From assembly GCA_017620345.1 (NCBI GenBank), contig JAFZQP010000017.1:1-21044 (forward strand): DNA of 21,044 nucleotides, in the 5' to 3' direction. This document shows positions 6,460 through 8,846 of this stretch, piece after piece (position 1 is the first letter of the stretch; each line of letters begins with the position of its first letter). Under the pieces are notes generated by a model. The model did not search any database. It was not told where the DNA came from and saw only the letters and a program-made list of their open reading frames with translations. This DNA comes from Lachnospiraceae bacterium. Lineage in GTDB: Bacteria; Bacillota_A; Clostridia; Lachnospirales; Lachnospiraceae. The position numbers were made by a program, and so were the translations under genes.

Positions 6460-7746
6460 ATGCTTGATATGAAATTCCTCCGGGAGAATCCGGAGATCGT
6501 AAAACAGAATATCAGAAACAAATTCCAGGACGAGAAGCTCCCGATGGTCGACAAGGTCATTGAGCTCGATGAGATGCGCCGCACGATGCAGCAGGAAGCG
6601 GACGATCTTCGTAACAAGAAGAACGTTCTCTCGAAGCAGATCGGCGCACTTATGAAAGAGGGTAAGAAGGAAGAGGCCGAAAAAGTCAAGGCCGAGGTTG
6701 CCGCAGATGCAGCAAGACTTGCGGAACTTGAGGGCGTGGAAGGTCCCGTAGCCGAAGAGATCCAGAAGATCATGTATACGATACCGAACATCATTGATCC
6801 GAGTGTTCCGATCGGTAAAGATGACAGTGAGAACGTTGAGGTCACCAAATACGGCGAACCTGTCGTACCTGATTTTGAGATACCTTATCATACACAGATC
6901 ATGGAAAGCTTTGACGGTATCGATCTTGATGCCGCAGGCCGTGTTGCGGGAAACGGTTTTTATTATCTCATGGGCGATATCGCAAGACTTCACTCTGCAG
7001 TGATCAGCTACGCAAGGGATTTTATGATCGACAGGGGATTTACATACTGCGTTCCGCCTTTCATGATAAGGTCCAATGTCGTGACCGGTGTTATGAGTTT
7101 TGCCGAGATGGATGCGATGATGTACAAGATCGAAGGAGAAGATCTGTATCTTATCGGAACGAGTGAACATTCGATGATCGGTAAGTTCATAGATCAGGTG
7201 GTTGATGAAGAAAAACTCCCTTATACGCTCACAAGTTACAGTCCGTGCTTCCGTAAGGAAAAAGGTGCGCACGGTATCGAGGAGCGTGGCGTATACAGGA
7301 TCCACCAGTTTGAGAAGCAGGAGATGATAGTTGTCTGCAAGCCTGAGGAAAGCCCTGAGTGGTTCAATAAACTCTGGCAGAACACGGTAGACCTGTTCCG
7401 CAGCATGGATATCCCCGTACGTACGCTTGAGTGCTGCTCGGGAGATCTTGCAGACCTGAAGGTAAAATCATTTGATGTTGAGGCATGGTCACCGAGACAG
7501 AAGAAATACTTTGAAGTGGGAAGCTGTTCAAATCTCGGAGACGCTCAGGCAAGAAGACTTAAGATAAGAGTCAACGGCAAGGACGGCAAGTATTTTGCGC
7601 ATACGCTCAACAACACGGTCGTTGCACCGCCGCGTATGCTGATCGCGTTCCTTGAGAATAATCTGTGCGCGGACGGAAGCGTGAAGATACCTGAGGTGCT
7701 GAGACCTTACATGGGTGGCAAGGAGAAACTGGTACCGAAGAAGTAA
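6460..7746 (+). CDS. serS: Seryl-tRNA synthetase
   Basis: Charges tRNA-Ser (and tRNA-Sec where present) with serine. The 428-residue protein has the tRNA-binding coiled-coil arm at about residues 27-105, then the class II catalytic core: GTSEH at 233-237, motif 2 at about 263-288 (CFRKEKGAHGIEERG then YRIHQFEK) and motif 3 at 381-401 (HTLNNT then PPRMLIAFLEN), ending in the usual EVLRPYMGG. The TAAGGAG site overlaps the carB stop, with only 12 bases between the genes, so the two are probably cotranscribed. Motif 2 has GAHGIEERG where most bacterial enzymes have GSAGRDTRG-like residues, and the region after it (KPEESPEW, DVEAW) differs from the common bacterial form. No T-box leader precedes it. 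Confidence 0.96.
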   Translation: MLDMKFLRENPEIVKQNIRNKFQDEKLPMVDKVIELDEMRRTMQQEADDLRNKKNVLSKQIGALMKEGKKEEAEKVKAEVAADAARLAELEGVEGPVAEEIQKIMYTIPNIIDPSVPIGKDDSENVEVTKYGEPVVPDFEIPYHTQIMESFDGIDLDAAGRVAGNGFYYLMGDIARLHSAVISYARDFMIDRGFTYCVPPFMIRSNVVTGVMSFAEMDAMMYKIEGEDLYLIGTSEHSMIGKFIDQVVDEEKLPYTLTSYSPCFRKEKGAHGIEERGVYRIHQFEKQEMIVVCKPEESPEWFNKLWQNTVDLFRSMDIPVRTLECCSGDLADLKVKSFDVEAWSPRQKKYFEVGSCSNLGDAQARRLKIRVNGKDGKYFAHTLNNTVVAPPRMLIAFLENNLCADGSVKIPEVLRPYMGGKEKLVPKK

Positions 7747-7773
7747 ACCATTTTTGTATGTGTACGTATAAAA

Positions 7774-7905
7774 GCGGGTGGCCGCACTGATGCCACAAAG
7801 CGAGTTCCGCAGACGCTCGGTTCCCTGTCTTGATCCTTGAATCAGAACTGAATCCGAGCGGCGAGGACTGTTTGAGCGACTGGCGCAGTGACGGACAGGA
7901 CCCGC
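7774..7905 (+). ncRNA. Candidate structured RNA or 5' leader element between serS and the NYN gene
   Basis: The 194-base gap after serS contains a GC-rich stretch with nested and crossing complementarity. GCGGGT (7774-7779) pairs with ACCCGC (7900-7905). CCTGTC (7824-7829) pairs with GACAGG (7894-7899), directly stacked inside the first helix. Between the 5' strands are small hairpins: GGC 7780-7782 with GCC 7792-7794 (extendable to GTGGC/GCCAC), and AGCG 7799-7802 with CGCT 7814-7817. CGCTCGG (7814-7820) can also pair with CCGAGCG (7854-7860), which would form a pseudoknot. No reading frame here has a ribosome binding site. It may be an independent small RNA or a leader controlling the downstream gene. 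I do not recognise an Rfam family; a partial look-alike to the T-box sequence was rejected. Confidence 0.5.
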
Positions 7906-7940
7906 GTATAACAAAAGACAGATTCGTAACAGGAGAATAT

Positions 7941-8846
7941 ATGGAAGCAGTGGAAAGACGTCTCGCTGTCCTCATCGACGCCGAGAATATTTCTATCAAG
8001 TATATAAAGGTCGTGCTCGACGAGATCAGTAACTACGGTATCGCCACGTATAAACGTGCATACGGTGACTGGACGAATCAGGTGCTTAAAGGGTGGAAAG
8101 AGGAAGTTCTTAAGAACTCGATCACCCCTATGCAGACGTACAGTTATACCCAGGGTAAGAACTCGACGGATTCTGCGATGATCATCGATGCGATGGATAT
8201 ATTGTATTCGGGCAAGGTCGACGGGTTCTGTATCGTAAGCTCGGACAGTGATTTTACGCGTCTTGCGTCGAGGCTTCGTGAAGCCGGCATGCTCGTTATC
8301 GGGATGGGCGAAAAGAAGACTGTGGAAGCGTTCAGGACGAGCTGTACGATGTTCAAGTATCTTGAGGTACTGGCTGCAGAGGACAGCTCACAGTCTGATA
8401 TATCGCGAGAGGATGTTGAAGATTCCATACTCAAGATAATGATCGATAACGAAGCAAATGAACGTGAGACGACGGTCGGCGAACTCGGCAACAAGCTCTC
8501 CAACAGACATGCTGATTTTGACGTACGTAACTACGGATACTCCAAACTGTCAAAGTTCCTTGAGAGCATAAAGGGACTGACGCTCACACAGCATGGAAAC
8601 TCGATCACGGTCACCCGCAAGGCAAGCGAGGTGTCAAAAGAGCAGATCGAGAAGCTTGTAAACGATACGCTTAAGAAGGCTGCGGGTAAGACGATGAGCC
8701 TTCCCGAACTGAAGCAGAAGATCGAAAAGAAATATCCCGCTTTTAAGTTAAGTGATTATCAGTACAGCAGGTTTTCACAGTTTATAAAAGACATGGACGG
8801 AATGGTCGTAAAGAACAATACGGTCAAACTGAAACAGAGCAGGTAA
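7941..8846 (+). CDS. NYN-domain (PIN-like) putative ribonuclease with two OST-HTH/LOTUS domains
   Basis: A soluble 301-residue protein. Residues 6-145 form a LabA-like NYN/PIN domain, with acidic residues placed as in PIN nucleases: D13 (LIDAEN), D77 (NSTDSAM) and D102/D104 (SSDSDF). Residues about 158-228 and 232-298 are two OST-HTH (LOTUS) modules, each with the KxxKFLESI- or SRFSQFIKDM-like helix. LOTUS domains bind RNA, sometimes G-rich or structured RNA, so an RNA-processing or decay role is likely; the target is unknown. I chose the ATG at 7941, preceded by AGGAG at 7931-7935, over an in-frame ATG at 7830 because the longer version would translate the structured intergenic element and add 37 residues foreign to the family. 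It overlaps closely with the next gene (3-base gap). Confidence 0.88.
   Translation: MEAVERRLAVLIDAENISIKYIKVVLDEISNYGIATYKRAYGDWTNQVLKGWKEEVLKNSITPMQTYSYTQGKNSTDSAMIIDAMDILYSGKVDGFCIVSSDSDFTRLASRLREAGMLVIGMGEKKTVEAFRTSCTMFKYLEVLAAEDSSQSDISREDVEDSILKIMIDNEANERETTVGELGNKLSNRHADFDVRNYGYSKLSKFLESIKGLTLTQHGNSITVTRKASEVSKEQIEKLVNDTLKKAAGKTMSLPELKQKIEKKYPAFKLSDYQYSRFSQFIKDMDGMVVKNNTVKLKQSR

Follow-up and report, generated by a model that had tools for sequence, protein, structure and literature searches.

A probable mobile palindromic repeat of Lachnospiraceae in the spacer between serS and an NYN-domain gene

The spacer between the seryl-tRNA synthetase gene serS and an NYN-domain gene of a Lachnospiraceae bacterium very probably contains one copy of a small noncoding, non-autonomous mobile palindromic repeat of certain Lachnospiraceae, which has landed at positions 7771-7908 of the 21,044-nucleotide stretch analysed here (the window; assembly GCA_017620345.1, contig JAFZQP010000017.1). 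This reading is based on several observations: many similar copies occur at unrelated places, their presence among genomes is patchy, and some orthologous sites are empty; the hairpin is long and conserved, shows compensating changes and varies at its tip; and truncated or internally deleted derivatives exist. The family is apparently uncatalogued, and no published account of it was found in the open PMC literature. It adds a structured mobile repeat, with unusually clear compensating changes, to what is recorded for the little-studied Lachnospiraceae, and it serves as an example of a mobile repeat that mimics a riboswitch candidate.

Locus and Extent of the Element

The element is flanked by two genes on the forward strand, namely serS (6460-7746; Pfam PF00587 and PF02403) upstream and a gene with NYN and OST-HTH/LOTUS domains (7941-8846; PF01936 and PF12872) downstream, which are separated by a gap of 194 nt. 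Its core hairpin was delimited on the forward strand at 7771-7908 by a covariance model, R1, constructed from 13 copies, and the full model (1-112) was matched with a cmsearch score of 106.1 bits, a value obtained for a sequence that was itself among the 13 used for building. The distance from the end of the element to the NYN start is 32 bases. As judged by eye, outer arms perhaps extend the repeat to about 7752-7917, with a possible outer arm TTTTGT at 7752-7757 (forward strand) that is complementary to 7911-7916 and that resembles, also by eye, the arms of copies in genome G006 (G numbers denote genomes and L numbers loci). By R1, the repeat mostly measures about 100-155 nt, and some copies reach about 200 nt once their outer arms are counted. 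An extended form (202 nt in L100), whose outer arms end like CTRGTAYARYRTYC and AACRCTRG, was observed in L100, L112, L139 (G025) and L140 (G193).

Predicted Fold

The region 7768-7915 is predicted to fold at -58.3 kcal/mol, compared with -43.8 +/- 3.6 kcal/mol in shuffled sequences (n=200; z -4.05, 0/200 as good), while the signal of the whole serS-NYN gap is weaker (z -2.91, 1/200 shuffles as good). The original prediction had regarded exact long-range pairing in this region as unlikely by chance. The fold as a whole is above chance; single complements of 6-7 bases are common here, the 261 bases 7700-7960 containing 10 inverted pairs of 6 bases or more.

According to the folding model, the window element forms a single long rod whose tip is variable. 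The outer stem is formed by GCGGG (7774-7778) and CCCGC (7901-7905), paired with a probability of about 1 and showing base changes on both sides among copies. It is followed by helix 2, with a 5' arm at 7779-7795 that includes CACTG (CAGGG in most copies) and a 3' arm at 7881-7897 that includes CAGTG (CCCTG in most copies), as placed by the alignment of copies, in which 96.3% of cells are paired and 6 of the 15 pairs display changes on both sides. Helix 3 joins 7798-7808, within the conserved AAGCGAGTTCC, to its aligned 3' arm GGACTGTTT at 7865-7873, with 93.4% of cells paired. The rod is capped by an apical stem of 7814-7820 with 7854-7860 (pairing probability 0.976-1.0) and a variable apical part at 7821-7853, in place of which the alignments of other copies contain a GAA loop or other short hairpins. 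All of these features are given on the forward strand.

The three exact complements on which the original prediction was built are present: GCGGGT (7774-7779) with ACCCGC (7900-7905), CCTGTC (7824-7829) with GACAGG (7894-7899), and CGCTCGG (7814-7820) with CCGAGCG (7854-7860). The first of them, the proposed outer helix, is supported, with a pairing probability of 0.905-1.0 and covariation between copies. The second is not, as its pairing probability is 0.0 and its 5' side falls within the variable apical part that is absent from most aligned copies; forcing it together with the outer helix changes the energy from -58.3 to -41.7 kcal/mol, a cost of 16.6 kcal/mol. The third, described as crossing the second, does form, yet it is the apical stem nested at the tip of the rod, and therefore nothing is crossed and no pseudoknot is needed; the proposed pseudoknot was rejected on these grounds.

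The original prediction had recognized no known family in the element, in agreement with an Rfam search that included the 6S, raiA and T-box models. With all models of release 15, 0 matches were obtained in the window at gathering score, and over 7600-8050 at E <= 10 only TCL6_1 appeared (E 3.7, at 7656-7751). Across 12 copy-bearing loci at E <= 1, the single match was a T-box located outside the element, with none on the element itself. An identity as tRNA or tmRNA was likewise rejected for the window element. The T-box leader match close to an element copy lies at L098 1748-1992 (G027) on the minus strand, with 82.6 bits, under the gathering score of 93.

Covariation between Copies

Comparison with relatives and analysis of covariation, the test that the original prediction had itself proposed, gave a positive outcome, revealing a covarying structured element. 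In a first alignment of 29 matches from 28 sources, with partial and rearranged matches included and 13 rows forming the R1 building set, 95.1% of 1004 cells pair and changes on both sides occur at 16 of 36 pairs, values that were reached by 0/500 shuffles; when partners were slid as a control, pairing fell to 34-41%. Clear compensating examples include CACTG/CAGTG in the window versus CAGGG/CCCTG in most copies, GCCA/TGGC versus GCCG/CGGC, and several outer stems. A second alignment drew on 19 loci of G193 and G716 and comprised 24 matches, 23 of them distinct and all from outside the R1 building set. Here 94.4% of cells pair (shuffles 93.3%), changes on both sides are found at 6 pairs (2/500 shuffles), further pair types lie within the shuffle range (51/500), and pairing is lost at columns 10-107 in 16/23 rows and at columns 30-82 in 10/23 rows. 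The shuffle numbers should not be read as probabilities, because both alignments were fitted to the R1 structure and comprise related copies.

Such covariation, together with the high conservation of the unpaired bases among copies, would also be expected of a dispersed small-RNA gene family made up of copies that are noncoding RNAs in their own right, their mobility being incidental. The strand on which an RNA would be read was addressed in the 22 full rows of the first alignment, 7 of the 29 being left out (L139, L098, L116, L112, L113, L108 and the second match of L141). G-T cells number 60 in these rows, of which two fixed pairs account for 44; A-C cells number 12. The two pairs are fixed as G-U/U-G on the forward strand in 22/22 rows, favoring that strand as RNA, whereas outside them 16 G-T cells against 12 A-C cells hardly amount to a strand preference, and the counts give no firm verdict. 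Further points against independent RNA genes are the patchy presence of the copies, the location of one of them inside a gene, and the detection of 0 promoter-like or terminator-like sites in 7600-8050, a count of little power given shuffle averages of 0.5 and 0.4. A small-RNA gene family is considered quite unlikely.

Distribution among Genomes

The NYN protein, whose closest listed homologue is 98% identical and is named Lachnospiraceae, served to locate the nearest genomes. In a DNA search of the nearest genus at E <= 0.1, 7 of the 37 genomes gave matches, strong ones in G006, G008, G025 and G027, with conserved ends and a varying middle. With R1 at E <= 0.01, 19 hits, some of them partial, were obtained in 4 of the 37 genomes (6 in G006, 3 in G008, 8 in G025 and 2 in G027). 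Wider samples were screened with stricter filters, under which weak matches are lost, yielding 2 of 397 genomes of the family (G006 and, newly, G193) and 1 of 392 genomes of the order (G006 again). In the genus of G193, both of the two genomes examined carry the repeat at E <= 0.001, with 18 hits in G193 and 16 in G716 (34 in total); several of these hits form adjacent pairs, which occur in both genomes. Carrier genomes contain 2-18 hits at unrelated loci, a multicopy distribution like that of MITEs. A near-perfect inverted repeat of more than 70 nt flanks one G716 copy (L264); this flanking palindrome, perhaps a fold-back assembly artefact, was excluded from the evidence.

Spread on phages or plasmids was considered and rejected, as the phage and plasmid search returned nothing beyond short matches (26-30 bases, E 0.6); viral contigs contained 0 exact matches to three patterns. 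A wide occurrence of GAGCGA repeats in Clostridia was also considered; one exact pattern was found in 0 of 291 genomes of the class, a sample without a known carrier and hence without a positive control.

Evidence for Mobility

Seven copies from G006 or G008 were each aligned with the orthologous site of the counterpart genome. Empty sites in G008 are opposite the G006 copies L101 and L104, an internally deleted mini-hairpin is opposite L094, and other or unclear sequence is opposite L108, L113, L102 and L093. In the serS-NYN spacer, G008 contains the element versus a short coreless hairpin in G006. Truncated copies, identified by BLAST and by eye and not recognized by R1, are present at L181, L189 and L190. 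Coreless or nearly coreless hairpins were observed at L160 (G006) and L239 (G008), where the other genome has a full element. The sharing of the serS-NYN site by the window and G008, which fits either descent or an insertion hotspot, was counted against mobility.

Insertion into a pre-existing palindrome, which the coreless G006 site suggests, was considered and rejected. It conflicts with the empty sites facing L101 and L104, which do not have the stems of these copies, so that there the stems came with the element or arose at insertion. No target-site duplication is evident at L101 and L104. In the window, the direct repeat CGTATAA (7765-7771 and 7905-7911) was considered as a target duplication and is not confirmed by the sister gap of G018, in which it has no counterpart.

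An autonomous parent was sought by the pattern of the ends, which gave 9 hits in 5 genomes, compared with 8 for a backward control, and no transposon was recognized. Four of the nine correspond to copies of the element, full or truncated (L198, L200 and L201 by coordinates, L206 by reading), and by eye no element follows within the next 330 bases of the other five.

Two copies of the same genome, L092 and L103, have a common core except for a 12-nt apical insert and possess quite different perfect outer stems. This pair, along with the coreless or deleted hairpins at orthologous sites, which indicate palindrome-driven rearrangement, favors an origin of the compensating changes at the DNA level, through hairpin-templated repair or hairpin recognition during mobility, instead of selection on an RNA. 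Internal helices covary as well (helix 2, at 6/15 pairs), and selection on the RNA fold explains this equally. A DNA-level origin, which is compatible with the mobile-repeat reading, is regarded as a serious possibility of somewhat less than even probability. A further, rather unlikely proposal is that the unit passed on is the folded hairpin itself, a fixed core acquiring different perfect outer stems via a single-strand or RNA intermediate and a non-RAYT enzyme, with the fold acting as RNA in host transcripts. The combination of the same core with different perfect outer stems makes the manner in which hairpin repeats spread directly testable.

Genomic Neighbors and the Leader Hypothesis

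The original prediction had suggested a conserved RNA or riboswitch-like leader, considered here as a functional cis-regulatory RNA of the NYN gene. In line with such a role, the element ends shortly before the NYN start (32 bases), its fold is stable and covarying, two genomes have it in the same gap, and part of the copies run in the same direction as both neighbors. The occurrence of the element at NYN genes and the neighbors of the other copies point the other way.

The 31 NYN upstream regions considered are the window and L149-L178, the latter representing 30 of the 36 NYN matches of the genus (L001-L004 repeat four of them). The element is present in 2 of the 31, the window and G008, and absent from 29, including the closest relative of the window (G018, NYN 98% identical), in which the gap is 24 nt. 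In L001 (NYN 92% identical) the serS-NYN arrangement is kept and the element is absent; not all of these genomes have serS as the gene preceding NYN. The gene with NYN and OST-HTH/LOTUS domains was itself observed in 35 of 37 genomes of the genus (E <= 1e-60), by eye not always with serS upstream.

The neighbors of the copies are unrelated by Pfam and include, by names deduced from Pfam, iorA/iorB, lon, folC/folP and flgK, among others. For orientation, 26 copies were classified, those of G716 being left out. The automatic call gave 10 co-directional, 4 antisense, 2 divergent, 1 convergent, 6 inside an ORF and 3 unresolved; after five of the six crossing ORFs (L099, L101, L140, L141 and L147; 88-157 aa) had been judged spurious, the numbers were 12, 6, 3, 1, 1 and 3. 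The copy still placed inside an ORF, L093, is in frame within an ABC-F-like ORF of 621 residues, between ABC_tran (301-430) and ABC_tran_CTD (559-619); the corresponding site in G006 contains a rearranged, inverted relative, and the frame is still open. A stable, sense-only association with one gene, as expected of a leader, was thus not found: copies adjoin unrelated genes in mixed orientation, some antisense to both neighbors (4 of 26, or 6 after re-judging) and one inside a gene, and there is no Rfam match. A cis-regulatory RNA of the NYN gene is very unlikely.

Under the mobile-repeat reading, the window copy would still probably be read through with serS and NYN and fold as a hairpin within their transcript. 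There it may delay degradation or mark a site of processing, effects that have been described for ERIC and Correia repeats. Copying of the repeat would be carried out in trans by an enzyme of the host or of an IS that recognizes the folded hairpin.

Comparison with Known Repeat Families

The enterobacterial repetitive intergenic consensus (ERIC) is characterized in PMC10969869 and PMC2267715 as an intergenic repeat present in many copies, up to about 127 bp long, which forms one long stem-loop, can be located at 3' gene ends and is sometimes intragenic. To the extent of that description, the window family is similar, being a multicopy intergenic repeat that folds as one long stem-loop; it differs in its hosts and in a tip that varies between copies. 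E. coli genomes contain ERIC according to PMC10969869, and a blastn search of 20,395 E. coli records at E 1 gave no match to the window element, which argues indirectly against sequence similarity to ERIC. Rickettsia palindromic elements, as far as the available part of PMC10969869 describes them, are palindromic, about 150 bp long and able to sit in frame in a gene. The in-frame copy L093 is comparable, whereas only 1 of 26 copies of the window family lies in a Pfam-recognized gene, the comparison being one with the description of these elements.

The likeness to MITEs is considerable, as the window family is short and noncoding, with inverted arms, many copies, patchy presence and empty sites. 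It is an inverted repeat without coding capacity, a rod-like hairpin of 36 pairs, and five of the six ORFs crossing copies are short. It differs from MITEs in that the searches gave neither a parent transposon nor a target-site duplication.

A REPIN, a doublet of REP sequences moved by a REP-associated tyrosine transposase (RAYT), was also considered. In the part of PMC3116915 available, REPINs are described as hairpins of two inverted arms with a variable spacer, and on that description the window family is alike: a long imperfect hairpin with conserved arms and a variable middle, mostly intergenic and multicopy. In contrast, Y1_Tnp (PF01797), the sole transposase family searched, had no match in four of the five carriers (G006, G008, G025 and G027) and one match in G193, in genomes whose completeness is not stated, and was detected in 4 of 8 genomes that lack the element. 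A REPIN is very unlikely on this evidence.

Additional hairpin structures were observed around the repeat and elsewhere. An extra hairpin arm occurs near GAGCGA motifs in L108, L112, L113, L116 and L098, measuring approximately 42 nt in the first three, and other palindromic or GAGCGA-containing spacer repeats, apparently separate families as judged by eye, are present in related genomes at L153, L105, L172, L174, L175, L240 and L242.
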